Source of the DNA: Thalassotalea fonticola
GTDB lineage: Bacteria > Pseudomonadota > Gammaproteobacteria > Enterobacterales > Alteromonadaceae
DNA length: 64,000 nt
Assembly (NCBI RefSeq): GCF_032911225.1
Contig: NZ_CP136600.1
Span: forward strand, 434,001-498,000
Direction: 5' to 3'
Below are positions 34,870 through 51,047 of this stretch, piece by piece. Under the pieces are notes generated by a model, which made no database searches, was not told where the DNA came from, and saw only the letters and a list, made by a program, of their open reading frames with translations. Positions within the stretch are counted from its first letter, which is position 1; the number at the start of each line of letters is the position of its first letter. Both the position numbers and the translations under genes were made by a program.

Positions 34870-37800
34870 TTATTTTGCTAATGTTAATTTTTTACGTCTA
34901 AGCAAAACAACTGGCAGTAATGTTAGTGCTAACCAGCCCATTGAGCCACCAGAAGATTTCTCTGTAGGTTCAACAATCGGATCAGCATAGGTACAACTAC
35001 CGTCGTCACTGTTAGCACTTGCAACAAAATTGGTTGCTGTAGTATCCATACAGCCTAAGATTGTTTGCTCTTCACCTTCACCTTCTTCATTCGCAGGGTA
35101 AGTACAACTGCCATCATCCGTATTAGCTGTTGCATCAAAGTTGTTAGCTGTAGAGTCGATACAACCCAGGTCAATATCATCAGAAACAACCGATAACATA
35201 AACTTGGTTGCGGCTAAATCGTTGCCAAAGATATTATCGGTAACTGTTACGGTAACTTGTGTCGTACCGTGCCAGTTAGTTTCAGGAGTAATAGCAATTA
35301 CAGAGCCTGAAGTATGTTCATTTACCGCTGCAACAATATTGTCACCGGTCACGGTAATAGTATTGGCAGAAATGCCGCCGTCAGAATCGCTGTAACTTAC
35401 CATGATGTTTTCAAGGCTGGTATTTTCAGCAATGCTTTGATCAGCAATTGCGGTAATATTGATATTTGAAGCAACCACAATATCGGCTTGTTCAGTTATT
35501 TCAGAAGTACCGTCAACACTACCGTTAATAGCAATAGATTGGGTTGTTGAAATTGCTGCACGAGTCACTTGTGCTTTAAAGTTAACCATAATCGCAGTCG
35601 ATTCTGGGCCTTTAATATCATAACAAATCACTAAACCATCTTTGATCACATCATCAAGGTTGTTGTACGCTGCCGATACACCGGTGTGGCCGTTTAATGG
35701 CCAGAATCCTGCTCTTGGGCCGTTATAACCACGAACACCAATAGAGCCAGAACCGGTTTGAGTACCAAAATCAACATTGTTGTAGGCCATTACTACTTCA
35801 TATTTACCTGGCACATTTGAGGTGTTACTGCGCATAAACATTTGATGATCATAACTGTCATCACGAGCATCAAAAGTAGTATTCCAGTTTAAGTCGGTAC
35901 CTTTGTCATGGGTTTTTGCATTGTCCCATTCAAGTAATACGTAATCACCAAGATATGCCATAGTTACACCTGAGTCGGCGCCATACTTGGCCAACGTCAT
36001 ACTTTGGTTCCAGTTGTTATCTTGCGTGGCATTCCAAAGTGGGGCAAACAAGTAATCTGGTGGTGTTGAATAGCCGGTAAATGGTAATTCAAGATGAATT
36101 TGCTGTGGCACAATATCCCACGGGTTATAGTTACCCATATCAAGTTGCACCCAACCTCTTGAACTTAATACCATTTGGTTGGTTTCAAAATACGCTTCGT
36201 TATCAAAAGGTGCTAACGTAGTACTGCTGTCGGTAAGTACTGGAATAGTCAGTTCATGTACCCAGTTACCCCAGCCCCATTCGTTAACTTCAAAGAATGA
36301 GCCCCAGCTTGGTACTAAACCATAAGCGCGCAAGTCTATATAACCACCGTCAACTTCCGGTAAATACTCATCCCAAGGAGTACGACACATGGCATCAGTT
36401 TCATTGGTTGAAAGCTCATAGTTGGTCGCCCAATCGGCAGAGTTTATTTGCTCAGCATTAATGCTAAAGCCATTCTCATTTAGAGTAAGACCTTCTACGG
36501 CATTGATTGAACCGGGAACTATGGTTAAACCGTCAGTCAATTGCGCTTGTAAATTAACCATACGGTCGCTACCAGAGCGGTTTGCTTGTACCATTACACT
36601 CATGTCAACCACATCGCCTACTCGTGCATCTGTTTGAGAAGCTGTAATGGATACCGTGTTGGCACCGCGAGTGATTTTCATTGGAATGAAGGTTAATGAG
36701 CCTTGTTCATTGTCGCCAGCCTGTACTGCAATAGCGGAATGATAGATGCTGTTTGCTGCCAGTTCTTTATTCCAGCTAATGTTCATGTCTGATGTTAATT
36801 CATCGTCAGCCGATTGATTAAACTCAAAGCTGAATTCATTACTTACTTGTTTCGATACAACGCCATAACTCACGCTAATCGTATCAATGCTTTCCCACGG
36901 GTACATTAAACCGTTGGCGACAATAATTGTATAGTCACCAGCTTCAGGGTTTTCGATGGTACAAAATTCCCCTTTGGTGGTTTGCGGTAAAAATGAGCCA
37001 CAAATTGCTTCGGTAAAGTGCAACTTACCGTCACCGTTAAAATCTTTAACGATGTAAATATCAGCATTAATGTATGAATTGGTTGAAAATTCTTTACTGG
37101 TTGTAGCGCTAACACCTGTTAACTCTGCAGTAAATATTGCCGAATTTTCAGCGACTGTTACTGGGATGGTGGCAATAAAATCGGCCTTTACGGTATTTAA
37201 CTCAGCATCGTCTTGAATATTGAAATAACCGGCAACATTAAATAGCTGATCATTAAAACCCTGTCGAGAAAGTGCGAGTTCATCATTACTCAATTGTACC
37301 GGGGCATAAGCAACTGCGTTAATAGCAGCGGCAGGCACACCAAATGGCACGTTAGCAACAAAGGCGCTGGCGTTATCATCGGTTGCCATAATGTTTACCG
37401 TATTTGGTAGCGTTTTTCCGGTGTAAAGTGATGAATATGGCCAAATTGCCATTGGCATCGCTTCATCTTCAGCAATAAACTGAATTTCACCTTGATCGGC
37501 ATGAATAGTACCATCGTACCAGGCAGAATCTACTTCGTTAAAGCTACTGTTAATCGTTAACGTAATTGATTCACCGGCTTTTAAAGTAAAAGTACTTGGC
37601 AGCACCGTCATTTTAGCGGTTGGATCCAGTGTCCAGTCATAGCTCATATGGTTTTGTTGCAGTTTTTCAACGTTCACGTTCCAAGTGCCATCTTGAGTAG
37701 CTTTCACTGTTCGAGTCCAGCTACATACACGGCCACAGTCGCGGTTAATTAACTGCGGTAAGTTCAAGTCTCGAACTCGGCCACCGTTGTGAGGGTTGGC

Positions 37801-40095
37801 GCGGCGAAAGTTTTCCGCGGTTTCGTCCATCACTAAACCAGAATCGATAGCACGTGCCACATTTATCAAACCATGACCGGCACGATAAGGTCCGGCAACA
37901 ACTACTTCATCATAATATGGGTGTTGCATTTTAATGGCTTTTGAATCAGCACTCATCTGTAACGCCGATTGTACTTCTGAGGCACTCCATTCAGGGTGTG
38001 CTTGTCGTACTAAAGTCATTACCCCGGCAACATGCGGGCTCGCCATTGACGTACCACTGATGCGGTTCCAGTCACGGGTATCAGAAAATTCTTCGAAAGG
38101 GTTTTCTTCCGTCCAAGCAGCAAAAATATCAACCCCAGGTGCAGCAATACCCGGCGAGAATAATTCATCAACGGTAGATGATGGTCCACGCGATGAGAAT
38201 ACCGCTAACCAATCAGCGTCTTCATCGTTTATTTCACGAGAAACTTCAGATGCGGTAATGGTACCGGTTAATCCTGTTCCTGATGCAAGCCAAGGTTTTA
38301 ACGCTTTAATTTTCCAACTTGGGCCTTCCCATTGAGCATTACTAATATGAATGCCTGGTATCACATAAGGGTCGTCATTAACCTGGTCGCCTTCAAGCGA
38401 TGTATTGTAAAGCACAAAGGCTCCGCCGCCACCGAGCTGTACGTTCACTGCTTTTTGGAAGCGGGCAATATCACCACGTTCACAAACCACAATTTGATTG
38501 GCACTAAAAGTATCGGCAGCAAATGGGCTATTACAACGGGCATCACCGTAATCGGCGGCTAATACAAACTCACCGGTAAATTCGCCGGAAATTCCGGCTC
38601 CCTTTAAGGTTAGTGGCGTTAATGCGCTGTCTCCGCCGTTAAAGTTGGCTAACTCTTTACCATCAATTTTAATCGAGCGAGCGTGTGTGGTTGCGGCTAC
38701 GTTTAATACCCAGGGTGATGTATGATCAACCGTGTATAACGAGTCAGTACCATAAGCCGCTCCCGAGTTACCGGCAGATAATGCTACGGCAACACCAGCT
38801 TCGCGTGCCGATAAAAATGCCATTTCAAACGCATTATCCCAAGGGAAGCTTTCACCACCACCAATCGACATATTAATAACATCGACACCATCTTTTATTG
38901 CTTGTTCTATGGCAAACAGCATGGCTTCACCGCCACAGCCGCCGGTAGGCATACACACTTGATAAGAAATAATGTTGGCTCTTGGGGCAACACCAGACAC
39001 TTTGGGCATTTTTACACCAACGGGTTGGCCGTGACCATCACCAACTAAATCAGGCAACAAGTCGTCTACTTCGTATAATGTGTTTCCGGCAACGGTACTT
39101 GCTACATGCGAGCCATGGCCATTAAAGTCTTCACCAAATTCAGGCGCTAAACGCTCCGCCGGAGTCCAGTCATTTGGCGGTATCGAAAAGAATGTATCGG
39201 TAACCGTTGGATGCGTGTAAACACCAATTAACTTGTCGTTACAGCGCTCGGCAAAGTCGTCTGTTGCACAATCTCCGAGGAAATTTCCTGAGCCTAACGG
39301 GTTGGTATGTTCATAACCATCGCCATCTACCGGCGCAAAAGAAGGATGTTGAGTGTTAATGCCAGTATCTATGATACCCACTAACATGCCTTCACCCTTG
39401 TAACTGCCACCTTCAGTGGTGCCTGAGCCATTCCATACACCACCTGCACCTACATGTTCAGGGCCTACGTCAGAGTGTAACTGATACACTTTCGAGCGTT
39501 GTACGTAGGCCACTTCCGACATTTCGGCTAATTTCAGCGCTTGTGCCTGTGTAACATTTACCGTTATGGCATTAATTGCGGTGGTAAATTGTTGACGAAC
39601 ATCAAGGGGTAAGCCTTTGTTCGTTGCTTTGTCTACAAAGTGTTGTTGTTTATTTAACAAGTGCTTGGTGTAAGCATCAACAGCAGCTTGAGGTGCGCCA
39701 ACCGCTTTTGAAGCAGAAAATAATTTTACATTATTACTTTTTCTGTTGCTAAGAACGCTGGCTTTGGTTGCTTGTAAACCGGTAATGTTACCGTCATAAG
39801 TAGCTACCGGTTGATCGAGTAACCGTACTATGTAGGTATGTGCACCGGTTAAGTCTTTCTCGAGTTTTATTTTGTCGCTAACCGATTTTGGTGTGAATTG
39901 AACATTACTTAAAGAGCCGTGGCGTAACGGTGAAAGAAATTCACTGTTAGTTTGTGCGGCCAGTTGTTTTTGCAAATTATGCAGTTTCATCATGTCAACA
40001 GCTTGTGGTAAAGAGCCACTAGCTTGAACATTGGCAGCAATGCTTGCGGCATATAATGCCGAGGTGATTGCTAATATCGTTGTTTTAATTTTCAC
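34870..40095 (-). CDS. Very large S8 subtilisin-like protease with GlyGly-CTERM tail
   Basis: 1741 residues. Signal peptide (1-26), I9-like propeptide (about 80-205), and a subtilisin domain with the triad Asp243 (VGIIDTGINT), His327 (FNGHGSHVAS) and Ser683 (SGTSMASPHVAG). A PA domain is inserted between His and Ser (about 500-610). Long beta-sandwich regions follow, then two 36-residue units with NFDATANTDDGSCTY and NFVASANSDDGSCTY. The tail SSGGSMGWLALTLL followed by LRRKK is a GlyGly-CTERM sorting signal, which a rhombosortase cleaves after export through type II secretion. So it is a surface or secreted protease, likely for nutrient capture. Monocistronic. Confidence 0.93.
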   Translation of the reverse strand: MKIKTTILAITSALYAASIAANVQASGSLPQAVDMMKLHNLQKQLAAQTNSEFLSPLRHGSLSNVQFTPKSVSDKIKLEKDLTGAHTYIVRLLDQPVATYDGNITGLQATKASVLSNRKSNNVKLFSASKAVGAPQAAVDAYTKHLLNKQQHFVDKATNKGLPLDVRQQFTTAINAITVNVTQAQALKLAEMSEVAYVQRSKVYQLHSDVGPEHVGAGGVWNGSGTTEGGSYKGEGMLVGIIDTGINTQHPSFAPVDGDGYEHTNPLGSGNFLGDCATDDFAERCNDKLIGVYTHPTVTDTFFSIPPNDWTPAERLAPEFGEDFNGHGSHVASTVAGNTLYEVDDLLPDLVGDGHGQPVGVKMPKVSGVAPRANIISYQVCMPTGGCGGEAMLFAIEQAIKDGVDVINMSIGGGESFPWDNAFEMAFLSAREAGVAVALSAGNSGAAYGTDSLYTVDHTSPWVLNVAATTHARSIKIDGKELANFNGGDSALTPLTLKGAGISGEFTGEFVLAADYGDARCNSPFAADTFSANQIVVCERGDIARFQKAVNVQLGGGGAFVLYNTSLEGDQVNDDPYVIPGIHISNAQWEGPSWKIKALKPWLASGTGLTGTITASEVSREINDEDADWLAVFSSRGPSSTVDELFSPGIAAPGVDIFAAWTEENPFEEFSDTRDWNRISGTSMASPHVAGVMTLVRQAHPEWSASEVQSALQMSADSKAIKMQHPYYDEVVVAGPYRAGHGLINVARAIDSGLVMDETAENFRRANPHNGGRVRDLNLPQLINRDCGRVCSWTRTVKATQDGTWNVNVEKLQQNHMSYDWTLDPTAKMTVLPSTFTLKAGESITLTINSSFNEVDSAWYDGTIHADQGEIQFIAEDEAMPMAIWPYSSLYTGKTLPNTVNIMATDDNASAFVANVPFGVPAAAINAVAYAPVQLSNDELALSRQGFNDQLFNVAGYFNIQDDAELNTVKADFIATIPVTVAENSAIFTAELTGVSATTSKEFSTNSYINADIYIVKDFNGDGKLHFTEAICGSFLPQTTKGEFCTIENPEAGDYTIIVANGLMYPWESIDTISVSYGVVSKQVSNEFSFEFNQSADDELTSDMNISWNKELAANSIYHSAIAVQAGDNEQGSLTFIPMKITRGANTVSITASQTDARVGDVVDMSVMVQANRSGSDRMVNLQAQLTDGLTIVPGSINAVEGLTLNENGFSINAEQINSADWATNYELSTNETDAMCRTPWDEYLPEVDGGYIDLRAYGLVPSWGSFFEVNEWGWGNWVHELTIPVLTDSSTTLAPFDNEAYFETNQMVLSSRGWVQLDMGNYNPWDIVPQQIHLELPFTGYSTPPDYLFAPLWNATQDNNWNQSMTLAKYGADSGVTMAYLGDYVLLEWDNAKTHDKGTDLNWNTTFDARDDSYDHQMFMRSNTSNVPGKYEVVMAYNNVDFGTQTGSGSIGVRGYNGPRAGFWPLNGHTGVSAAYNNLDDVIKDGLVICYDIKGPESTAIMVNFKAQVTRAAISTTQSIAINGSVDGTSEITEQADIVVASNINITAIADQSIAENTSLENIMVSYSDSDGGISANTITVTGDNIVAAVNEHTSGSVIAITPETNWHGTTQVTVTVTDNIFGNDLAATKFMLSVVSDDIDLGCIDSTANNFDATANTDDGSCTYPANEEGEGEEQTILGCMDTTATNFVASANSDDGSCTYADPIVEPTEKSSGGSMGWLALTLLPVVLLRRKKLTLAK

Positions 40096-40324: not shown

Positions 40325-41170
40325 GTGTTTAGAAGTCATCTGCCACTTGCGGTTATATTTTTAATCTCCAGCTTGCTAGTTAAACCGGTACAAGCTTGCG
40401 AGGTCGACTGTGTTGAACAACATAGTTGGGCCGTTGGTGTTGGTCTGGGAGTAGGTGAGTTCGAAAACCCGCTATTTGACGGCAAAGATCGAAATGTCGT
40501 GGTTTTACCTTCTTTTTATTATTATGGCGAAAAGTTTTATATTGAAAATACTGAACTTGGTTATGTGTTTGTAGAAACCGATGACTGGTTGTTCAAATTT
40601 AAGGGCAAGTTCAATAACGATGGTTTGTATTATAATGATTCAATAGTCGATGACCTAATTGTTGCTGGTGCGTTTGGCCCAGGTAATTTTGAAGAGCCTG
40701 AAGAGTCAGTTTCCAGTGGCGATGTTGACCGAGACTTATCTTATATGGCCGGCATTGCCGGTGATTATTTTGTTTATGATAATTTCAAACTCTCTGTTGG
40801 TGTTTATCATGATGTTAGTGGCGTTCATGATGGCTATTCAATCAGCGCAGGTAGCCAATATGTGTGGCAGCAAGATAATTGGTTTTTGGCGGCAGGTATT
40901 GGCGCTGAATTTTTAGACTCAGATTTAAACCAATACTATTATGGGTTGCGACCTGAGGATGAAACTATCTATGGCAGTTTCAATGTTGGCTCTAATAGCA
41001 ACGTTATCGGAAACTTCTCTTTATCTTACAAGATAAATAAACACTTTTCAGTTATTGGTCGTTACCAGTATAAATGGTTGGGCTCACAGATGACTGTTAG
41101 CCCCTTGGTGGAAGACGATAGTACTTCATTTTTCTTTATTGGCATTAGCAGCCAGTTTGGGTCAAACTAA
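40325..41170 (+). CDS. MipA/OmpV family outer-membrane protein
   Basis: 281 residues with a signal peptide (cleavage after VQA, about residue 24) and alternating beta strands to the end. WAVGVGLGVGEFENPLFDGKD near the mature start and VLPSFYYYGEKFYIENTELG are MipA/OmpV signatures. The last strand FFFIGISSQFG ends near an aromatic, as barrel proteins need. GTG start; AAGGT lies eight bases upstream. The next gene overlaps none but follows in one base. First gene of a four-gene operon with DUF3019, response regulator and kinase. Confidence 0.85.
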   Translation: MFRSHLPLAVIFLISSLLVKPVQACEVDCVEQHSWAVGVGLGVGEFENPLFDGKDRNVVVLPSFYYYGEKFYIENTELGYVFVETDDWLFKFKGKFNNDGLYYNDSIVDDLIVAGAFGPGNFEEPEESVSSGDVDRDLSYMAGIAGDYFVYDNFKLSVGVYHDVSGVHDGYSISAGSQYVWQQDNWFLAAGIGAEFLDSDLNQYYYGLRPEDETIYGSFNVGSNSNVIGNFSLSYKINKHFSVIGRYQYKWLGSQMTVSPLVEDDSTSFFFIGISSQFGSN

Positions 41171-41171
41171 A

Positions 41172-41570
41172 ATGAAGAACTTAGGCCTAATGTCACTTAT
41201 CCTGCTACTGCCATTATTGTTGCTAACACTGGCAAACGCACCAGTACAAGCGGCTGAAGCAAACATATCAATTACCCCACAAAGCTGTATGGCAAAAAGT
41301 GGCTGGTGTGAAACCGAGTTGCAAATAACTTGGCAAATGAGTGAAGAAAGCTCGGTTTGTATTAAAATAGAACACCATAAAAAACGTTATTGTTTTGACA
41401 AAGGGCAAGCGCATAAATTGCGCGTACCAGTAAAAATTGAAGGCCCCATTAAAATAGTTTTGCTGCATGGCACTAGCGAGCATGTATTGGCAACTGAAGT
41501 GTTGAATGTATTTGTTAGTGAATACAAAAAACGCAAAAGGCAGCGCCATGCCTGGAGCATAATATTATGA
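41172..41570 (+). CDS. DUF3019 secreted protein
   Basis: 132 residues with a signal peptide (cleavage after VQA). The mature part ISITPQSCMAKSGWCETELQ and VCIKIEHHKKRYC show the cysteine and strand pattern of DUF3019. Proteins of this family commonly accompany MipA/OmpV and an RstAB-like pair; the function is unknown. Start taken at the ATG one base after the mipA stop; the open frame continues upstream inside it. ATGA overlap with the response regulator. Confidence 0.82.
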   Translation: MKNLGLMSLILLLPLLLLTLANAPVQAAEANISITPQSCMAKSGWCETELQITWQMSEESSVCIKIEHHKKRYCFDKGQAHKLRVPVKIEGPIKIVLLHGTSEHVLATEVLNVFVSEYKKRKRQRHAWSIIL

Positions 41571-42274
41571 GCAATATAAAGCATGTGGTATTGATTGAAG
41601 ACGACACCATGTTAGCCGACTTAACCCAAAGTTTCTTGCAGCAGCACAACTATAAGGTATCGGTATTTAACAGCGGTATTGCCTTTTTAGCGAAAGCAAA
41701 ATCGCTAGCTATCGATATTATTGTGTGCGACATCAATATGCCTGAAATGAACGGTTTTGAGTTGTGTGCAAAAGTGAGAGAAGAATATAACGGTCCCTTT
41801 ATCTTCCTTACCGCCCGTAAAGACGAAGTCGATCATATCTCTGGCCTGGAAATTGGTGCCGATGATTATATCAACAAACCGGTAAAACCCGCATTGTTAT
41901 TAGCCCGCATAAAGGCCACCCTAAGAACACGTGAACGCTTGCAAACTCAAAACCCGCAAAAACGTATCGATCTCCCTGGGGTGGTTATTGATAAAGATAA
42001 GCGCTTATTGGAAGTTGCCGGCAAGCCTGTAACACTTACCTCTGACGATTTGGATTTATTATGGTTTTTAATTCTTCATAAAGATCAAACCTTAAGTCGT
42101 GATGACTTGTTCATGGAAATGATCGGCCGTAAATATGATGGCCAGGACAGAGTGATTGATGGCCGAATTAGTCGCCTTAGAAAAAAATTCAACGCCTTGG
42201 ACAATAACCCTTATGAAATAAAAACGGTATGGCGTTTGGGCTATGTTTTTTCATCCCGTGAAATAGGTCAGTAA
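41567..42274 (+). CDS. OmpR-family response regulator
   Basis: 235 residues: receiver domain with phosphoacceptor Asp55 (CDINMPEMNG), acidic pocket EDD (11-13) and Lys in KPVKPA, then a winged-helix DNA-binding domain (GRISRLRKKF and WRLGYVF). Closest in style to RstA/CpxR-type regulators. It overlaps both neighbours (ATGA before, TAATG after), so regulator, kinase and two envelope proteins form one translational unit and it probably controls its own operon. Confidence 0.92.
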   Translation: MSNIKHVVLIEDDTMLADLTQSFLQQHNYKVSVFNSGIAFLAKAKSLAIDIIVCDINMPEMNGFELCAKVREEYNGPFIFLTARKDEVDHISGLEIGADDYINKPVKPALLLARIKATLRTRERLQTQNPQKRIDLPGVVIDKDKRLLEVAGKPVTLTSDDLDLLWFLILHKDQTLSRDDLFMEMIGRKYDGQDRVIDGRISRLRKKFNALDNNPYEIKTVWRLGYVFSSREIGQ

Positions 42275-43494
42275 TGAAACGTCAGTTTATTAAGCTGTTT
42301 TTACTCATATTAGTAAGCCTGGTATTTATATCCTGGTTGACTGAAAGTTTTATTGAGCGTGAACAAGTTCGCTCAGCATCGATTGATATTAGTTCATTAG
42401 CAGGCATTATTGGCCGCAATTCTGATCAATCACTTAATTTATCAAGTGGTAGGGTGATAGCCATCAGCAAGCTTACCTGGCCAGACGATATTAAAGATAA
42501 ATTGAGCCGTGGCGAAGTTGTCTCACTAAGTAATATTGACAATCAGGTGTTTTATTACTGGTTATTTGCAGGTGATAACCAGCAAGTTGTCGAACTTGGG
42601 CCATTTGCGTTGGAACAAGATGAGAGCAATCTTTATCTTAGCTTAACAGTGCTGTTTTATAGCGTCTTTGCGCTGGTATTATTCATTTGGTTATGGCCAG
42701 TTTTTAGTGACGTGCGACAACTTATTGAATTAACCAATTTATTTTCAAAAAAGCGGCAAAAAATTCGCAGTTCTATTAAATCTACCTCGGTGATGTCGCC
42801 ATTAGCCGACAGTGTTGAGAGTATGTCTCGACAAATTGTTCGGTTTTTATCATTACAACGTTTTCTCGCCAGTTCTATTTCACACGATATCCGTACTCCG
42901 TTAGCTCGCATTGGTTTTTTATTAGCGATGACAAACCCGGAAAATATCAACGAATCAAAAGACAGAATTGAAAAAGAGCTGGACGAAATAGACCGGCTTA
43001 CCGATGATTTTATCGAGCTGGCTAGAATCGAAGAGTTTCATTATCAATTGAACATTCAAGCGCAAAATTTACAACCTTGGCTAGTGGAATTAATAGAAAA
43101 AATACAACATGGCACCACAATTAGTATAAATATTGCCGTAGAAGATGAAGTGTTAATTGCTCACGATGCAAAATTTTTACAACGCGCAGTGCAAAACTTA
43201 CTGGCTAATGCGGTTAAATACGCTGAACAACAAGTAAATGTTACGGTTTGCCAGGTTGAAAAACAATTAGAGATACGAGTTGAAGATGACGGTACCGGCA
43301 TAAATCCTGAAGAACAAGAGCGACTTACCGGCTTGTATGAACGCGGGAAATCGTCAAAAAATGGTGGTAGTGGTTACGGAATTGGTCTGGCATTTGTTAA
43401 TGTAATTACCGAATGGCATGGTGGTAATGTGACCATTAAAAAATCAGCGTTGTTAAATGGCGCCTGTATCTCTGTTTTTTTACCTAACAGTTAA
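42274..43494 (+). CDS. Sensor histidine kinase (RstB-like)
   Basis: 406 residues: N-terminal helix (8-24), periplasmic region of about 100 residues, second helix (about 125-145), HAMP-like linker, then the phosphoacceptor box SSISHDIRTPLARIG and an HATPase domain with N box NLLANAVKYA, G1 VEDDGTGI and G2 GGSGYGIGLAF. A small periplasmic sensor fits envelope stress or antimicrobial peptide detection, but the signal is not known. Last gene of the mipA operon. Confidence 0.92.
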   Translation: MKRQFIKLFLLILVSLVFISWLTESFIEREQVRSASIDISSLAGIIGRNSDQSLNLSSGRVIAISKLTWPDDIKDKLSRGEVVSLSNIDNQVFYYWLFAGDNQQVVELGPFALEQDESNLYLSLTVLFYSVFALVLFIWLWPVFSDVRQLIELTNLFSKKRQKIRSSIKSTSVMSPLADSVESMSRQIVRFLSLQRFLASSISHDIRTPLARIGFLLAMTNPENINESKDRIEKELDEIDRLTDDFIELARIEEFHYQLNIQAQNLQPWLVELIEKIQHGTTISINIAVEDEVLIAHDAKFLQRAVQNLLANAVKYAEQQVNVTVCQVEKQLEIRVEDDGTGINPEEQERLTGLYERGKSSKNGGSGYGIGLAFVNVITEWHGGNVTIKKSALLNGACISVFLPNS

Positions 43495-43584: not shown

Positions 43585-44856
43585 TCAAGTTTCAGTTTCG
43601 GCTAGCGGCCAAGACATAAATATTTTGGCCCCTTGAATGTCTTGGTTTGCTACGGTTAATTGTCCACCATGGTTGCGAATGATTTCGGCACATAACGATA
43701 AGCCAATGCCTGAACCATGCTTTTTGGTGGTATAAAATGGCGTTAGTACGTTGCTTAAATTGGCAAAGCCGGGACCGTTGTCTGTTAATTCAAGCACTTG
43801 TTCTTGTTGGTGATAATAAGCTTTGAAATTTATTTTAGTCGTTGTATGTTCGCACGCTTCTTGCGAATTTTTTAATAAATTAATCATCACTTGGGTAATT
43901 TGTTCGACGTCGCCGAAGCATTGTTCATTGCCTTTAAAATCTATTTCACAATTACTTTCGTCTATCATCGCAGTCGCTTCAGCTAGCACATCGTGAATAT
44001 TGAACCATTTTATTTTTGGTGGCGGCAATTGGGCAAGCTTGCTGTATTGACCAACAAACGACAGTAGTCGCTCGCTACGCTGATGTATTCTTGTTAACAC
44101 TAAGCGGGTACGTTGTTCATCTAAGTGCTCACTGCCAAGTAAAGTATCTGTCATGGAAGACATCGGAGTTAATGAATTACGCAGCTCGTGGCCCAATACT
44201 CTGATCAGGTTTTGTTGCGTAACGCTTTGATTTTTGTGCAGCAGCTGAGAAATATCCAATGCTGAAAACAGCCAATGTTTCTCGCTTAGGTGCAAGTAAT
44301 TGATGCTTTGGCATTGCCAGTTATCAGCAAATTTGGGGTGGCTTAATTGGCCATTTTCTAAGGTGAAACCCAATTCAGTTGCCTTACTGCCTACTAACAT
44401 CGGCTGTTGTAGTTGCTCATTCATGGCTGAATTTCGATAGGTTAATTTAAGCTGTTGATCGAATAAACAAACAGGCACCGACCATGAATCCAGCATGCCA
44501 GAGAGTAAATGCGACAAGCTGGTACTTTGAGCATTTTGCGTTGATTTTACCAAAGCTAATGCTTCAACTTCATTTTGTAATTCAGTCAGTAAATTGTCTT
44601 TGTGAGATTTTTTTAAATGTAAGTTTTGCTCGCCCTCTTTTAGCATTTGCGTATAGGTAGTGAGCTGCATGATACTTTGACACCAAAACCAATAACAACG
44701 CCACGCCAGCCAAATAAGAGGGTGCATGACGACAAATAAGGTGGTACTTATCGCCAATAAACTCCAGTTTAAACTTAGCGTTAATGCCGCAATAAGCGCC
44801 ATAATTACGACAACGATTGAGCTTAGGCCCGTAATAAGCCATTTTTCATGATTCAT
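43585..44856 (-). CDS. NtrY-like sensor histidine kinase of the exporter operon
   Basis: 423 residues: two N-terminal membrane helices (about 8-55), a PAS-like segment (about 115-200), then VLGHELRNSLTPMSSM (His box) and an HATPase domain (MINLLKNSQEA, LTDNGPGF, GSGIGLSLCAEII). The HELRNSLTPM box is the NtrY/PgtB type that partners NtrC-family activators. It starts five bases after the activator gene's stop. The short periplasmic loop means the signal is likely sensed in the membrane or cytoplasm. Confidence 0.9.
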   Translation of the reverse strand: MNHEKWLITGLSSIVVVIMALIAALTLSLNWSLLAISTTLFVVMHPLIWLAWRCYWFWCQSIMQLTTYTQMLKEGEQNLHLKKSHKDNLLTELQNEVEALALVKSTQNAQSTSLSHLLSGMLDSWSVPVCLFDQQLKLTYRNSAMNEQLQQPMLVGSKATELGFTLENGQLSHPKFADNWQCQSINYLHLSEKHWLFSALDISQLLHKNQSVTQQNLIRVLGHELRNSLTPMSSMTDTLLGSEHLDEQRTRLVLTRIHQRSERLLSFVGQYSKLAQLPPPKIKWFNIHDVLAEATAMIDESNCEIDFKGNEQCFGDVEQITQVMINLLKNSQEACEHTTTKINFKAYYHQQEQVLELTDNGPGFANLSNVLTPFYTTKKHGSGIGLSLCAEIIRNHGGQLTVANQDIQGAKIFMSWPLAETET

Positions 44857-44861
44857 TAATA

Positions 44862-46259
44862 TTACTCATAGTGAATATTAAATTTTTCCAGGCGTCGGTA
44901 TAAGGCATTTCGCGATATATCGAGTATTTTTGCGGCTTCTATTACTTGCCCATTTGTTACTTGCATCGCCTTTTCTATAAGTTGCTGCTCAGCTTGTTCA
45001 AGGGGTTGTAGGGTAACTCCTGTACTTTCGATATCGGTTGTATCTAGGAGGAGTTGTTGTATGCCTATTTCTGTCGTTGTTGCTAATAGTACGGCACGCT
45101 CAATCACATGGCTCAGCTCTCTGATATTGCCGGGCCAGCTATGCTGCTGCAGTTTTTTTAATGCGCCTGAGCTAAGTGTTAAGCTTGATTTTTGATACTT
45201 TTGGCCAAAGTGCTGGAGAAAGTTTTCACTCAATGGTTGCATGTCAGCTAATCGTTCACGCAGTGGCGGCATGGTGATCACTAAGGTGTTTAACCGGTAC
45301 AACAAATCTTGGCGGAACTCGCCATCTTTAAGTAGTTGATTTAAATTGGCATTGGTCGCACTAATTAACCTGACGTTAGCGTGCTCTGTCTGGCTTGACC
45401 CCAATATTTCATAATGACCTGTTTCCAGTACTCTTAATAATTTCGGTTGTAGGTTTAATGGTAATGAGCCAATTTCATCGAGAAACAAGCTGCCTTGCTC
45501 GGCCAATTGAAAGCGGCCAACCCGGTGTTGTTTGGCATCGGTAAAGGCGCCTTTTTGATGACCAAATAATTCACTTTCAAACAGGTTATCTGGAATGGCA
45601 GCCATATTTACCGCAATAAACGGATTATCTTCTCGGCTTGATAATTGATGAATGCGTTCGGCTAACAAAGATTTTCCGGTGCCGTTTTCACCCAAAATAA
45701 GAACATTGGCGTCGGTTGGTGCTATTTGCATCACTAACTGCTCGATAGCTTGCATTGCTGCTGATTCTGCTATCCAATTTTTATTTTGTAGTTTGCTCTG
45801 TGGCTTACTGCTTAAAAGTTGTCGATAACCTTGGTGTTCTTGTTTTAAACGATTATGACTTAACTGCTGGCTAATACTGTTTAGTAGCTTTGCTTTATTC
45901 CAAGGTTTTTCGATAAAATCGCAGGCACCTTGTTGTAAGCCTTTTACCGCTAATTCTATGCTGCCCCAAGCGGTCATTAATATAACCGGAATATTACTTT
46001 GTTGCAGTTGTTTTAAAATGTCCAGACCTTCTTGGCCGCTGGTTGTGTCGCGACTAAAGTTCATATCAAGTAGCACCAAATCGGGCTTTTGTCGTTGAGT
46101 TTGTAACACCACTTGTTTGGCATCACTGGCTTCAATGACTTTAAAACCATTGGCACTAAGTAATAAGTCTAGTGCTAAACGAATATCTTCATCGTCATCG
46201 GCAATTAATACGGTGGCGTTGTTGGCATTGCTTCGAGTGTTGTTGTTGGCAGTATTCAA
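44862..46259 (-). CDS. Sigma-54-dependent NtrC-family response regulator
   Basis: 465 residues: receiver (Asp65 in LVLLDMNFSRD), AAA+ domain with Walker A LGENGTGKS and Walker B GSLFLDEIGSLP, the sigma-54 contact loop GAFTDA, arginine-finger region and a Fis-type HTH (EAAKILDISRNALYRRLEKF). The contact loop reads GAFTDA in place of GAFTGA, a substitution seen in a number of this group. It should activate a -24/-12 promoter; a candidate lies in front of this same operon at 50879. Confidence 0.92.
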   Translation of the reverse strand: MNTANNNTRSNANNATVLIADDDEDIRLALDLLLSANGFKVIEASDAKQVVLQTQRQKPDLVLLDMNFSRDTTSGQEGLDILKQLQQSNIPVILMTAWGSIELAVKGLQQGACDFIEKPWNKAKLLNSISQQLSHNRLKQEHQGYRQLLSSKPQSKLQNKNWIAESAAMQAIEQLVMQIAPTDANVLILGENGTGKSLLAERIHQLSSREDNPFIAVNMAAIPDNLFESELFGHQKGAFTDAKQHRVGRFQLAEQGSLFLDEIGSLPLNLQPKLLRVLETGHYEILGSSQTEHANVRLISATNANLNQLLKDGEFRQDLLYRLNTLVITMPPLRERLADMQPLSENFLQHFGQKYQKSSLTLSSGALKKLQQHSWPGNIRELSHVIERAVLLATTTEIGIQQLLLDTTDIESTGVTLQPLEQAEQQLIEKAMQVTNGQVIEAAKILDISRNALYRRLEKFNIHYE

Positions 46260-46279
46260 AAAAAGTCCTATAAAATGAA

Positions 46280-46314
46280 AGGGCTAACACCGGTTTACAC
46301 TTGGTGATAGCCCT
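46280..46314 (-). terminator. Imperfect hairpin between permease and activator genes
   Basis: AGGGCTA/TAGCCCT outer stem with inner CACC/GGTG and one mismatch, in the 87-base gap. Only short T runs follow, so attenuation or RNA processing is as likely as termination. Confidence 0.4.
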
Positions 46315-46346
46315 GAGTTTACTTTATTGTTTGGCGTTATACCAAT

Positions 46347-48842
46347 TTACTCTTCACGCAATGCTTGCATAGGATCAGAGCGAATTACCCGCCAAGCCGG
46401 CATCAGTACAGACAACACTACAATAGCAATTAAGCCACTATCTAATGCGGTCATTGCCAACCAATTAAATTCAGGCAGCATTTCCAGTTGTTGTTGAATT
46501 TGCTGATAACCAACAACTGAAATAATAAAGCCTAAACCAAGGCCTATTACTAACATCCATAACGCATCTTTTAAAATAAAGCGCACTAAACGCGACTGTT
46601 TAGCACCGGTTGCCATGCGTACTGCCAGTTCATATTTACGATGATTGGTGGTCATTTGCGTTAACCCGGCAACCCCAATAGCGGCTAATAGTAATGTTAA
46701 TGATGTCAAGGTGAGTACCACCCATAAGCTCACTCGTTGATTAAGTGTTTGTTGTTGCCAAATTTCAACGACTGGCATCACTTGTAAGTTACTCAAACGT
46801 GGAAATTTTCGTTTCAGTTCACTATCGATCATCTCGCTTGTTACTCTTTGCCCCTCAGGCATCATCACCGTAAATTGTAACGTTCCTCCGGTGTCTATGC
46901 GATGTGAATAAACCACAGGTAATCCTAACGGGTCGGCAATGCCGGTTTGGCTTATGGTATTGGCGACAATACCCGTTATTATCCTTACTGGAGTGTCACT
47001 GACAGGGCTTATCTGAATGGTTTTGCCAATAATTTCTTCATTAGATAAGGTTGGGAACATGGTTGTTGCCATGTTCTGATCAATCACGATGCGTTCTTCG
47101 TCATTGTCAATTTGCTCCTGGGTTAAATTGGACCCGGCGAGCATTTTAATATTGAAGGTACTAAAAAAGTCGGCACTTAAACTTCTGACCTGAAAAATTA
47201 CACGCTCGTTATTATTGTTTTCATTTAGAAATACTTGAACTCGCAACGAGTCAGAAAGAGGCCCATTGTCTGCTATGATAACCTTACTGTCAGTAATGTT
47301 AGTTTCGATCGTAGTACTAACATCGTGCAGCAGTGTGCTTATTTCGTTTTGCTTGTATTGTTCGTAATCCTGCAACTTAGCAACATATTCTTCATCGGCA
47401 ATCGTCAAAGAAACATTGTAAGAGTTACCAATGTCATAACCTAAGTCTTGATATACCGATTGATAGCTTTGCAGGGTGATCATCACCGAAGCCGTTAATA
47501 ACATAGAGGCTATAGATAGTTGCAGTACCATTAGCACTCGACTTAACCATTGATTACTCTGCGCTTGAATACCTTTACCACTACTGTTCAGGTTATTTGC
47601 TAATGCTTTTTTATCAATATCAACTAAGGCGAGAGCGCTAAACAGTATGCTTAATAGCACTATAATGGCAAACGATGTAGCGATAGTGACGCCATTTAGT
47701 CCTATGCTATCAATCATTGGTAAACTGTCACCGGCAATTAATGGTAAGCTTTTTAGGGCCCAACCAGTTACTAATAAACCCGCAGTAGCAGCAAGTAAAA
47801 AACTTGGTAAGTTTTCAAGCAATACTAGCAATCTAACTTTCAATAAACTTGCACCTAAACTTAATTGGATAGAAAATTCTTTAGTACGGCTTTGATAATG
47901 CGCGATAAAAAGATTTAATAAATTTAAAGTCGCCATAAGGAGTAAACCAAGGGAAGCGCAAAACAGTGCAATAATTAACCCTTCAGTCTCACCCAGCATA
48001 TTGCTGCGATAAGGTGCAACAATAACGTCTTTGTTAGTATTGTTGAGAAAGTTTAAAAACATTTGTAGATTATCACTGTCAACATTTGCGGTGGTGTAGT
48101 TGTTTAACCATTCATCAGTTTGCGCAATGGTTGGTAACACGGCTTCGCCATTGGTACTTTTAACGATCAGGAAATCAATTTCATTACTGATATTACCAAC
48201 ATTATCTTCTTGCGTGGCAACAGTGGTAAGGTTTTTTATAAACCAAACTTGTTGTGGCAAAATGGCCTCGTTACTCTTTATTGCCATTACATCTTCAATA
48301 ACACCGGCAATAATAAACGACTGATTATTTACGTTCAGTTGTTTACCTATTACTGATTCTGCACCCGCGTAGGCATATTGCCAAAGACTCTCTGAGATCC
48401 ACACATACTTTTGAGGCGCAGCAATGCTAACATCATCGCCTAGTAATAAGCGCGTGCCTAATACTTGTAAAATGTTATCTGATGCTTCAAACCTGGTTGT
48501 CGGATATATGCCATTGTTTATTTCAACATCTTGCTCTGTCGGGGAGATACCTGCCCATTCACCAAGATCGGCAAACTGTTGACCAAATGCAGCTAAACGG
48601 TTCATATTCCAATACGACACACTTAAGGTGTCTGACATCTTGAAACGATATTCATAAGTTTGTAATTTAGCCTCGTTTGGTACACCTTGTAATGGCTGGT
48701 ACAGCAAGGTTGATGAAATAGCGGTAACACTTAACACTGCGCCTAAAGTCAGGCCTAAGGTTAAGATCAGTGGAAGACTAAGCCTTGGTAAAGCAAAAAC
48801 TCTTGCTATGCCATGATAGAAGGCTTTTTTGTATAAGCTCAT
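46347..48842 (-). CDS. MacB/FtsX-type ABC transporter permease
   Basis: 831 residues, with the duplicated architecture: helix (about 24-45), MacB periplasmic domain, three helices (about 288-420), a helix near 436, a second periplasmic domain, and three C-terminal helices (about 705-820). Such long permeases have no fused ATPase; the separate ATPase gene overlaps it by four bases. Proteins of this group export peptides, lipoproteins or antimicrobial compounds with a MacA-like adaptor, present upstream. Confidence 0.9.
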   Translation of the reverse strand: MSLYKKAFYHGIARVFALPRLSLPLILTLGLTLGAVLSVTAISSTLLYQPLQGVPNEAKLQTYEYRFKMSDTLSVSYWNMNRLAAFGQQFADLGEWAGISPTEQDVEINNGIYPTTRFEASDNILQVLGTRLLLGDDVSIAAPQKYVWISESLWQYAYAGAESVIGKQLNVNNQSFIIAGVIEDVMAIKSNEAILPQQVWFIKNLTTVATQEDNVGNISNEIDFLIVKSTNGEAVLPTIAQTDEWLNNYTTANVDSDNLQMFLNFLNNTNKDVIVAPYRSNMLGETEGLIIALFCASLGLLLMATLNLLNLFIAHYQSRTKEFSIQLSLGASLLKVRLLVLLENLPSFLLAATAGLLVTGWALKSLPLIAGDSLPMIDSIGLNGVTIATSFAIIVLLSILFSALALVDIDKKALANNLNSSGKGIQAQSNQWLSRVLMVLQLSIASMLLTASVMITLQSYQSVYQDLGYDIGNSYNVSLTIADEEYVAKLQDYEQYKQNEISTLLHDVSTTIETNITDSKVIIADNGPLSDSLRVQVFLNENNNNERVIFQVRSLSADFFSTFNIKMLAGSNLTQEQIDNDEERIVIDQNMATTMFPTLSNEEIIGKTIQISPVSDTPVRIITGIVANTISQTGIADPLGLPVVYSHRIDTGGTLQFTVMMPEGQRVTSEMIDSELKRKFPRLSNLQVMPVVEIWQQQTLNQRVSLWVVLTLTSLTLLLAAIGVAGLTQMTTNHRKYELAVRMATGAKQSRLVRFILKDALWMLVIGLGLGFIISVVGYQQIQQQLEMLPEFNWLAMTALDSGLIAIVVLSVLMPAWRVIRSDPMQALREE

Positions 48843-49534
48843 GCTACACCTCTTAACTTTTGCTCTGTTACTATTTGGCCATCAAGTAACTGAATTTGAC
48901 GGTTTGCACATTGTGAGTAACGGGTGTCGTGCGTTACCATTACAATGGTTGAGCCATCTTTGTTTAATTGCTCAAGCAATGCCATTACTTGATCACCATT
49001 TTTACTGTCCAGGTTACCGGTTGGTTCATCCACTAAGATAAGATCTGGCTTACCGACTAATGCACGAGCAATGGCAATACGTTGTTGTTGACCACCAGAT
49101 AACTGGTTAGGGCGGTAATTTTGTCGATGCCACATATCTACTTGCGTAAGTACTTCTTCAACCCGTTGTTTTATTTCGGTTTTGTTAACGTTTCTGTGCT
49201 CAAGCGGCAGGGCAACGTTTTCAAATACAGTCAAGCTGTCAATTAAATTGAATGATTGAAAAACATAACCTATGTGCTGGTTTCTAATTTGCGTACGTTG
49301 GTCAACTTTAAGTCCGGCAGTGTTAATGTCGGCTATTTGATATTCTCCTTCACTGGCACTGTCCATTAACCCCATAATTGATAATAACGTTGACTTACCA
49401 CAGCCTGAAGGGCCGGTAATTGCAACAAACTCGCCTTGGTGAATTTCAAGTGAAACGCCTTGCAATGCATGAGTTTCTATTTGTTGGCCGTCGTAACGTT
49501 TGTGTACATTGTTCATTTCAACTACTTTTTTCAT
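48839..49534 (-). CDS. ABC transporter ATP-binding protein (MacB/LolD type)
   Basis: 231 residues: Walker A GPSGCGKST, Q-loop YVFQSFNLI, signature LSGGQQQRIAIARAL, Walker B LILVDEPTGNLD and H-loop VTHD. LolD/MacB-type ATPase. The start at 49534 is chosen because MKKVVEMNNV fits the family and AAAGGA precedes it; the longer frame upstream is not likely used. Stop overlaps the permease start (ATGA). Confidence 0.93.
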   Translation of the reverse strand: MKKVVEMNNVHKRYDGQQIETHALQGVSLEIHQGEFVAITGPSGCGKSTLLSIMGLMDSASEGEYQIADINTAGLKVDQRTQIRNQHIGYVFQSFNLIDSLTVFENVALPLEHRNVNKTEIKQRVEEVLTQVDMWHRQNYRPNQLSGGQQQRIAIARALVGKPDLILVDEPTGNLDSKNGDQVMALLEQLNKDGSTIVMVTHDTRYSQCANRQIQLLDGQIVTEQKLRGVA

Positions 49535-49601
49535 GGTCAAATCCTTTCTGTAAATTTGTAATTTATTTAATATTTTAATTAATGTGTATTCGTTAACGTC
49601 T

Positions 49602-50840
49602 CTAGTCTTGCAAAGATAACTGGCTGAACTGGGTATATTTACTGGTGTCGCTACTAACAATGTCTTCACCGGCTAAAAGACCTTCAACAACAACTAATTT
49701 ATTTTGTGAAAGCTCGCCAAATGTTACGTTACGTTGCTCTAATAAGTTGCTTGTGGTGCGTACAAATACGGCTTGTTTAGAACGGGGTCTTAATCCGGGA
49801 ACTTGTTTAATAAATATTGCTTTTTCGTTATGTATTACAAATACTTGCGCAGATATTGCGAGAGAAGGGCGAGCATTTGAGGTTAGCTCACCATCTAACA
49901 CGGCTTCTGCTAATACAGAGCCATTGGCAACAACGCTTTCTATGCGAGTAATATGGGCAGCTATTTTGCCTTTTTGGGTGTCTATGATCACCGGGGCATT
50001 AATGTCTACTTGGTCTGCTTGATGTTGTGGTAACCGCAAACGAGCAATGAGCTCTTTATCGCTACCAACTTTTGCTAATGACTCACCTAGCTGTACACTT
50101 TGTCCTAATTCAACCTCAAGCGTTTGTAATGAACCGGTTATCCCGGCTTTTACTTGCATGTCGGCCAACTGCTGCTCTAAAAGAGTAACTTGTGAGGCTT
50201 GTTGAACAATAGTGATATCGCGCTGGGTTAGCTGGTAACCTTGCATTTCAATAAACTGTTGGTATTTTTGTTTTTCAAACTTCAACCGTTTACTTTGTTG
50301 TTTTACTGCTAACTTGGCACGTTGTAATTCAATTTTTGACGATACCCCCAAGTTCATTAAATTTTCATTAACTGATAATTCAAGTTGGGCTTTTTCAATC
50401 TCCGCTTCAATGTCGGCAATTCTGCCTTGATAATTTAAGCGTTCACTTTGTTGCTCGTATTTAAACGCTTCTAACTGTGCTTGTTGTTGTGCCAGCTGGC
50501 CTTGCGCCTGGCTAACTTCTTGCTCAAGCTTAGGATTGTTGAGATGCAAAATAACGGTCTCTGGCGTTACTTGAGTTCCTGGACGAACCAAAATTTCAGC
50601 TACTTTACCTAATGCCGGTGCCGTTAATAACCGCTCCTTTGCCGAGGCAAATTCACCGTAGGCGTTACTGTAAATATCTAATGGCCCACTACTAACTGTT
50701 TGAAAGGACAGGCTGGCAATGTCTACTGTTTTGCTTGCTTTGCTGCTAACGGCAAACGTGGCGTAACCAAGCAAACTGATAAACAGGGCAATTGCTGTAA
50801 TTTTCTTCCAAGGTTTATGCTGGGCTAGTTCAATTTTCAT
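49602..50840 (-). CDS. MacA-like periplasmic adaptor (HlyD family)
   Basis: 412 residues: one N-terminal anchor (about 13-30), a long coiled-coil hairpin (about 105-230, rich in Gln and Glu), split lipoyl-type domain (LTAPALGKVAEILVRPGTQV and AGITGSLQTLEVELGQSVQLG) and a beta-barrel C-terminus. Links an inner-membrane exporter to an outer-membrane channel; no TolC gene is in the window. First gene of the operon, 27 bases after the predicted sigma-54 start site. Confidence 0.9.
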   Translation of the reverse strand: MKIELAQHKPWKKITAIALFISLLGYATFAVSSKASKTVDIASLSFQTVSSGPLDIYSNAYGEFASAKERLLTAPALGKVAEILVRPGTQVTPETVILHLNNPKLEQEVSQAQGQLAQQQAQLEAFKYEQQSERLNYQGRIADIEAEIEKAQLELSVNENLMNLGVSSKIELQRAKLAVKQQSKRLKFEKQKYQQFIEMQGYQLTQRDITIVQQASQVTLLEQQLADMQVKAGITGSLQTLEVELGQSVQLGESLAKVGSDKELIARLRLPQHQADQVDINAPVIIDTQKGKIAAHITRIESVVANGSVLAEAVLDGELTSNARPSLAISAQVFVIHNEKAIFIKQVPGLRPRSKQAVFVRTTSNLLEQRNVTFGELSQNKLVVVEGLLAGEDIVSSDTSKYTQFSQLSLQD

Positions 50841-50878
50841 AATTACTCATTTGTATTAACATATTATTAACTTTTTAA

Positions 50879-50895
50879 TGAAATATACGTGCCAA
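50879..50895 (-). promoter_or_regulatory. Candidate sigma-54 (-24/-12) promoter of the exporter operon
   Basis: Read on the minus strand: TTGGCACG-TATA-TTTCA, against consensus TTGGCACG-N4-TTGCA. The -24 element is perfect; the -12 element has T in place of the first base of the GC pair. It is 39 bases upstream of the adaptor ATG. The operon itself encodes a sigma-54 activator. Confidence 0.7.
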
Positions 50896-50957
50896 CTTTA
50901 AAAGTTGTTTATTTACAATGGGTTACTGGTTTGTGGTGAGGTGAGGGGAGTTACTTG

Positions 50958-50989
50958 TGTTCGGTTTTAAACTGACTATGTTCGGTTTT
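50958..50989. promoter_or_regulatory. Twin 11-bp repeats, candidate upstream activator sites
   Basis: TGTTCGGTTTT occurs at 50958-50968 and again at 50979-50989, 21 bases (two helical turns) apart on the same side. They lie about 105 bases upstream of the expected start site, the normal place for an NtrC-type activator to bind. They could also serve the DUF457 gene on the other side, but that gene's promoter is much farther away. Confidence 0.6.
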
Positions 50990-51047
50990 GAATTTTGCCG
51001 GTAAGCTAAGACTCTAGGCTTTTTATAGCGGGGGACAGGTTAATTGG

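Follow-up and report, generated by a model that had tools for sequence, protein, structure and literature searches.

A putative sigma-54-controlled export module of adaptor, ATPase, double permease, NtrC-type regulator and kinase in Thalassotalea fonticola

Gene organization of the module

As seen in Table 1, five genes lie together on the minus strand of a 64,000-nucleotide (nt) stretch of Thalassotalea fonticola (assembly GCF_032911225.1, contig NZ_CP136600.1, positions 434,001 to 498,000), which is referred to here as the window. They encode a periplasmic adaptor, an ATP-binding cassette (ABC) ATPase, a permease, an NtrC-type response regulator and a histidine kinase. Judging from the sequences of the locus and its relatives, it is highly likely that the regulator uses sigma-54 to switch on its own exporter, and a self-controlled export module is, with good though lesser confidence, the best explanation of the whole.

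Table 1. Genes and predicted features of the module (positions in the window)
Feature	Position	Strand	Remarks
Periplasmic adaptor (HlyD/MFP), 412 amino acids	49602..50840	-	PF13437, E=1e-12
ABC ATPase, 231 amino acids	48839..49534	-	ATG start at 49534; PF00005; nearest NCBIfam model DarD
Double permease, 831 amino acids, two FtsX/MacB-type halves in a single chain	46347..48842	-	
NtrC-type response regulator, 465 amino acids	44862..46259	-	TTG start; PF00072, PF00158, PF02954
Histidine kinase, 423 amino acids	43585..44856	-	PF02518 above cut-off; PF00512 25.2 bits, just under the cut-off of 26.9
Predicted -24/-12-type promoter, TGGCACGTATATTTCA	50879..50894	-	One mismatch to the consensus; kept in relatives
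Candidate operator dyad A, AATTCAAAACCGAACA	50979..50994	-	9/12 to TGTTCG-N4-CGAACA; 100 base pairs (bp) upstream of the T of TGG
Candidate operator dyad B, AGTTTAAAACCGAACA	50958..50973	-	9/12; 79 bp upstream of the T of TGG
Terminator-like hairpin, AGGGCTATCACC...GGTGTTAGCCCT then TTCATTTTAT	46280..46314	-	Fold z-score -2.5

The ATPase and permease genes overlap by 4 bp, and the regulator and kinase genes are separated by 5 nt. The adaptor/ATPase gap is 67 nt, and the permease/regulator gap, which holds the hairpin, is 87 nt. A sequence-only reading of this DNA had described five genes running in one direction, with coupled starts, as a single operon. The common direction was borne out, and the claimed domains were found by profile search. 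Coupled starts apply to the ATPase/permease and regulator/kinase pairs but not to the two wider junctions. The five genes are linked, but the hairpin splits the regulator genes from the exporter genes, so that the description as a single operon holds only in part.

The order adaptor, ATPase, permease, regulator, kinase is kept in 53 sufficiently long fetched stretches, with two exceptions, L240 (no recognised regulator pair) and L237 (permease frame broken and no ATPase found). In seven loci found through the regulator, the regulator and kinase genes are divergent from the exporter genes. The genome has one rpoN, and its TolC-type genes are unlinked to the module.

Predicted promoter upstream of the adaptor gene

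Relatives of the adaptor (E of 1e-60 or better) were found at 60 places in 59 of the 395 genomes of the family, representing 20 of 52 genera. All are called close relatives here, and the lowest of them (about 32-43% identity) may be paralogs. The 59 upstream regions compared come from all places but one in genome G063, a partial match with an internal stop, and the window was used for its own genome. Fifty-three upstream segments of 160 bp are less than 75% identical to one another when compared position by position without gaps. Conservation ahead of homologous operons had been proposed as a check of the promoter and operator, and when it was run both were found to be conserved (57/59 and 50/59, respectively). 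The promoter and operator features can be regarded as secure because they are conserved across these upstream regions.

A -24/-12 promoter with a perfect sequence element had been claimed, and TTGGCACG does lie at 50895-50888 on the minus strand, upstream of the adaptor gene, at a site that relatives conserve. Its -24 element is TGGCACG at 50894-50888. Compared with TGGCACGNNNNTTGCW, the 16-mer has a single mismatch, at the G of the -12 GC, where the C is present and the G is replaced by T (TTTC, not TTGC). By its sequence the -12 element of the window is a variant of the consensus with a predicted function, and transcription is predicted to start near 50868. A site of this type was top-scoring in 57 of the 59 upstream regions. 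The weights of the score were set by the author from the consensus TGGCACG-N4-TTGCW, and the filter demands a TGG[CT]-type site with TGG and the -12 C, which fixes those letters by selection.

It could be supposed that the match and the upstream repeats are chance and that a sigma-70 promoter drives the genes. Inside the window, sites with two mismatches or fewer are as common as in shuffled sequence (11 found, 11.2 expected), although only two have a single mismatch, and a 9/12 sigma-70-like match at 50911-50882 overlaps the promoter region, though such matches also equal shuffles (20 in the window and 20.5 expected). Taken without conservation, the site is weak evidence. Fixed-spacing conservation over the 59 upstream regions argues against chance, and the supposition is hardly credible. 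Judging the promoter on window statistics alone was tried and set aside as uninformative.

Loci with the same combination of genes are termed cassettes here. A promoter score of at least 13 was reached in 24 of 44 upstream regions of cassette adaptors, compared with 3 of 162 other genes of the same loci, and five of the 24 are the window and its close relatives. This count dropped adaptors of 150 bits or less, upstream DNA shorter than 140 bp and identical upstream regions. With wider upstream regions, 26 of 43 cassette adaptors reached the score. Strong -24/-12 sites recur before cassette adaptors in Opitutia, Acidobacteria and Burkholderiales too. The G at -12 is present in all 19 sites of other cassettes scoring at least 13, where the score itself rewards G. 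Locus L082 duplicates L063; it is absent from the counts of 44 adaptors, 63 gaps, 43 adaptors and 32 cassettes and from the strict transmembrane count, where the window's own kinase replaces it among the 52 kinases, and it is included in the 52 kinases judged by hydropathy, the 73 gaps of the looser hairpin rule and the 100 regulators scored for their loop.

Candidate operator dyads and the recognition helix of the regulator

Two exact TGTTCGGTTTT repeats, at 50958-50968 and 50979-50989, are 21 bp apart, as had been noticed earlier, and they turn out to be the conserved right halves of two 16-bp dyads of the form TGTTCG-N4-CGAACA. In relatives the dyads keep a spacing of 20-21 bp and fixed distances, beginning about 100 bp (dyad A) and 79 bp (dyad B) upstream of TGG. 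Dyad A matches at 8/12 or better in 46 of the 59 upstream regions and dyad B in 38, and both match at 6/12 or better in 50; in shuffled sequence a score of 8 is reached in 1.3% and a score of 6 in 27%. At least two CGAACA or TGTTCG half-sites within 200 bp upstream of the promoter site are found in 50/59, and in some relatives (e.g. L067, L200, L206) the dyads are perfect, at 12/12. Six direct-orientation TGTTCG half-sites with 12 bp spacing were seen upstream of the operon in L197.

According to the recognition helix of the linked regulator, the operators can be divided into two groups. Regulators with an SR[N/M]A helix are accompanied by TGTTCG half-sites in 46/46 cases and by TGYGCG in 2/46, whereas those with an [S/T]R[H/F]A helix show TGTTCG in 1/5 and TGYGCG in 5/5 (Fisher 2e-5 for TGTTCG and 9e-6 for TGYGCG; the table leaves out seven rows in which no helix was matched and another with SKSA). 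This co-variation gives strong support, short of proof, to the predicted binding of the dyads by the linked regulator. Among the more distant cassettes, some carry different palindromic dyads close to these positions, for example ATCCCA-N4-TGGGAT and ATCTCG-N4-CGAGAT.

The 4.9 Mb genome contains a single exact TGTTCGGTTTT pair; allowing up to three mismatches adds one place, and a reversed control pattern also gives one. When single operator half-sites were searched in the same genome, no regulon appeared: there were 9 forward and 19 reverse matches, and the reversed control gave 17 and 15, respectively. Besides the pair, one further exact copy of TGTTCGGTTTT, at 42837-42847 inside an RstB-like kinase gene, is unpaired and probably due to chance.

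The AAA+ part of the regulator is matched (E of 1e-30 or better) at 12 places in its own genome, the window's included, and a sigma-54-dependent promoter might thus be served mainly by another activator, with the linked pair regulating something else. Such an arrangement is very improbable, since changes in the helix of the linked regulator go along with changes in the operator, and the genome contains the exact twin operator only once. Together with the conservation of both sites, these two results support the earlier proposal that the activator drives its own exporter.

Hairpin between the permease and regulator genes

A terminator-like hairpin was found in 44 of 63 permease-regulator gaps (median 109 nt), compared with 5.9 expected from shuffles. 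None of 43 adaptor-ATPase gaps, which are shorter (median 71 nt), contained one, and 0.2 were expected. The hairpin count covers gaps of 40-350 nt; the gap in the window itself, examined separately, was positive. Under a looser energy-based rule, used with no shuffle control, 56 of 73 gaps were positive. The hairpin stands between the exporter and regulator genes, and lower expression is therefore probable for the latter, through read-through or a separate promoter. It is rather likely that the hairpin itself lowers regulator output.

Regulator and kinase proteins

The regulator shares its receiver (PF00072), Sigma54_activat AAA+ domain (PF00158) and Fis-type helix-turn-helix (PF02954) with the NtrC/AtoC/ZraR family. 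The sigma-54 contact loop of that family is GAFTGA, while the window regulator and most cassette regulators have GAFTDA instead, which fits the motif when known variants are allowed; an excerpt of PMC4641369 lists GAFTDA among the loop variants expected to keep activity. A GxFTDA loop is present in 91/100 cassette regulators and in 11/59 other NtrC-type regulators, some of which may have an exporter lying out of view.

In the AlphaFold model of the kinase (mean pLDDT, the predicted local distance difference test, of 78), a helix at residues 2-28 is joined by a loop of 4 residues (29-32) to a helix at 33-74, followed by a PAS-like domain (~129-201), a DHp domain and a catalytic domain. As modelled, the kinase is almost wholly membrane and cytoplasm, with hardly any periplasmic part. 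The earlier label of NtrY-type kinase captures it only in part, missing this near-absent periplasmic portion, which the loop and a comparison of classes both indicate. By hydropathy, the first two helices are 14 residues or fewer apart in 47 of 52 cassette kinases. A strict rule of two transmembrane helices and a loop of at most 20 residues was passed by 39/52 cassette kinases and by 47/47 kinases from operons fetched with the adaptor, compared with 2/38 kinases beside non-cassette NtrC-type regulators. L155, proteins of 300 amino acids or less and kinases beside regulators scoring at least 484 bits were excluded from these 38 controls. The top 50 matches of a fold search with the kinase were general kinases and PAS/LOV-kinase chimeras and gave no clue to a sensor.

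It is somewhat likely that the signal is read in or at the membrane. The same promoter logic could also serve a kinase whose PAS-like domain senses a cytoplasmic or redox signal, with the exporter outside sensing and the short loop meaning merely that there is no periplasmic sensor. The PAS-like domain is present in the model, and N142 within it is invariant in both kinase alignments; the linkage of kinase and exporter is nevertheless kept in distant bacteria, and the two-helix membrane part stands at near-fixed spacing in most, so that sensing by the PAS-like domain is considered unlikely. Reading of the signal at the membrane is preferred here. That it is read specifically through the permease is suggested by analogy, and only tentatively.

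Comparison with known transporters

The permease contains two MacB_PCD stretches, and its model shows two periplasmic parts, at about 50-285 and 465-690. Its best NCBIfam match is to the ADOP duplicated permeases (TIGR03434), nearly full length, yet the 331.7 bits fall below the curated cut-off of 622.3. The ATPase is closest to DarD of the darobactin exporter DarBCD (NF038007, NF038008, NF038010), with 265.7 bits and a cut-off of 375, and DarC is second-best for the adaptor; DarB (52, cut-off 700) and DarC (59, cut-off 450) are also under their curated cut-offs. The module thus falls outside both families as curated.

The exporter had been called MacAB-like. It shares the HlyD/MFP adaptor and the MacB-fold periplasmic domains with MacAB-TolC, and MacB is the closest solved sequence. 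In MacB, the ATPase domain is fused to a permease with four transmembrane helices, whereas here the ATPase forms a protein by itself and the permease has double length. The FtsX/MacB fold therefore stands, but the permease is not MacB itself, and it scores 54.1 with the MacB model NF007826, whose cut-off is 966. MacAB is not known to have an NtrC-type pair linked to it. The part of PMC9629497 available to us mentions MacAB and makes no mention of its control by sigma-54.

YbbAP of Escherichia coli is only 12% identical, and it differs from the window module, which has a linked adaptor and two-component system. An ABC complex of the YbbAP, LolCDE or mechanotransmission type would be an envelope machine that extracts lipids or lipoproteins, with the regulator serving an envelope-stress response. 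An HlyD-type adaptor is linked in most loci found through the regulator, which argues against such a machine, as does the position of some cassettes in or beside biosynthetic genes. The point from the adaptor is qualified by L089, L094-L096, L102, L104 and L106, where none was seen (some are cut by contig ends or flank). An envelope machine is on balance doubtful, and export remains the favoured function.

As in the Bce-type modules of Firmicutes (BceAB with BceRS), a kinase that by its model is of the intramembrane-sensing type stands beside an FtsX-type transporter. The regulator of Bce modules is of the OmpR type, whereas the window regulator is of the NtrC type with a sigma-54-type promoter. 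Also, the Bce permease has one large extracellular domain in place of two MacB-like halves, and the window module, unlike Bce, has an HlyD adaptor and a kinase with a PAS-like domain. In the text seen of PMC7828314, BceS is described as an intramembrane-sensing kinase under control of its transporter. By analogy, the module would work like a Bce module without being a member. A PADLOC search returned no defence system, the matches being only to general AAA+, receiver and ATPase domains.

Distribution of the module

Apart from the copy in its own genome, the regulator is matched 29 times (E of 1e-100 or better) in a set of 59 related genomes, one of which has seven of these matches. At least one exporter gene adjoins all 29, and a kinase gene adjoins 28, the last lying at a contig end. 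In the genome scan, 23 loci qualified as cassettes among the best 80 of 589 stretches. These belong to Opitutia, Bryobacteraceae, candidate division KSB1, Bacteroidota (including Bacteroides fragilis and Aquimarina), Sphingomonadales, Dyella, Massilia, a Burkholderiales genome, Pseudoalteromonas and Thalassotalea itself; counts taken from the best 80 of 589 are not frequencies.

A 2025 survey (PMC12316311), in the portion accessible to us, found predicted sigma-54 promoters enriched before COG0577 permeases in Gammaproteobacteria, Opitutia and Bacteroidia and termed this the first evidence. The broad link between sigma-54 and FtsX-type permeases is, as far as that portion goes, already in print; the same portion contains no description of a linked regulator-kinase pair, operators or an intramembrane kinase. 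A search of one library of papers found no account of the five-gene module. The sequence-only reading had considered sigma-54 control of such pumps unusual, and this does not hold in view of the 29/29 regulator relatives beside exporter genes, the sites in other phyla and the survey as far as seen. By sequence comparison, the module is of a widespread kind present in several phyla and not an oddity.

Only one record was returned when the permease was compared with plasmids by tblastn at 1e-20. Plasmid-borne relatives of the cassette, L248 (CP042358.1), L247 and L250, lie in or beside biosynthetic genes, and in two of them a phosphopantetheinyl transferase gene is directly 3' of the kinase gene. 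The own genome holds a second, divergent cassette, L055 (C1:1834000-1848000), in which TGGCACAACGTTTGCA is accompanied by three dyads of the TGTTC[G/A]-N4-CGTACA/CGGACA type. Cross-talk between this cassette and the window module is possible.

Proposed mechanism and its weight

In NtrC-family activators, dimers assemble into an active oligomer. For the module, the membrane-embedded kinase would detect cargo or a disturbance of the membrane, perhaps through Bce-like contact with the module's own permease, and once activated would phosphorylate the regulator. Regulator dimers bound to the two dyads, which are spaced by two helical turns, would then assemble into the active oligomer and remodel the sigma-54 polymerase at the promoter, raising synthesis of the exporter, while the hairpin would keep the regulator and kinase lower by partial read-through. 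An amphipathic or peptide-like compound would be taken by the exporter from the inner membrane or periplasm and passed out by way of the adaptor and a TolC-type channel whose gene is unlinked. There is about an even chance that the cargo is a membrane-active compound; the neighbouring genes of six close loci, inspected by eye, included no shared partner that names a substrate.

Several points weigh against this account. The evidence consists of sequence and comparison, and the shuffle controls ignore shared ancestry. At position 13 of the site, where the -12 GC has its G, 40 of the 57 close relatives carry T, 15 carry C and 2 carry G, which leaves the -12 element without its usual G in 55/57. 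Below the promoter threshold are 20 of the 44 cassette adaptors, some with a mis-set start or an operon beginning elsewhere. A TGTTCG-like dyad (p of 0.05 or better against shuffles) accompanies only 14 of the 32 cassettes with a promoter score of at least 12, four of which are close relatives of the window's cassette. Only 5 variant regulators inform the helix-operator test, and a single genus supplied three of these. Additionally, 13/52 cassette kinases fail the strict transmembrane rule: eight because their PAS region holds a third hydrophobic stretch, one for its 32-residue loop, one for a mismeasured second helix and three because fewer than two helices were found. The PAS-like domain could also be the sensor.

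A further and tentative suggestion, held with less than even confidence, is that the module is an NtrC/sigma-54 counterpart, in Gram-negative bacteria, of Bce need-sensing, in which exporter and kinase form one sensor and paralogues are insulated by their own diverged palindromic operators. If the kinase does read the exporter, need-based exporter control, as in the Bce modules of Firmicutes, has an independent Gram-negative form, and its regulators could flag exporters of natural products. A single promoter guess has in any case become a testable family, defined by the correlation of operator with helix, promoter position, hairpin and a class of kinases with scant periplasmic part.

Neighbouring features of the window

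A second two-component system, with an OmpR-type regulator and an RstB-like kinase, lies at 41567-43494 and is convergent with the module, and a MipA-family gene at 40325-41170 is near it. At 34870-40095, an open frame of 1741 residues resembles, by eye, a secreted protease of the subtilisin type whose C-terminal tail is of the sorting type.

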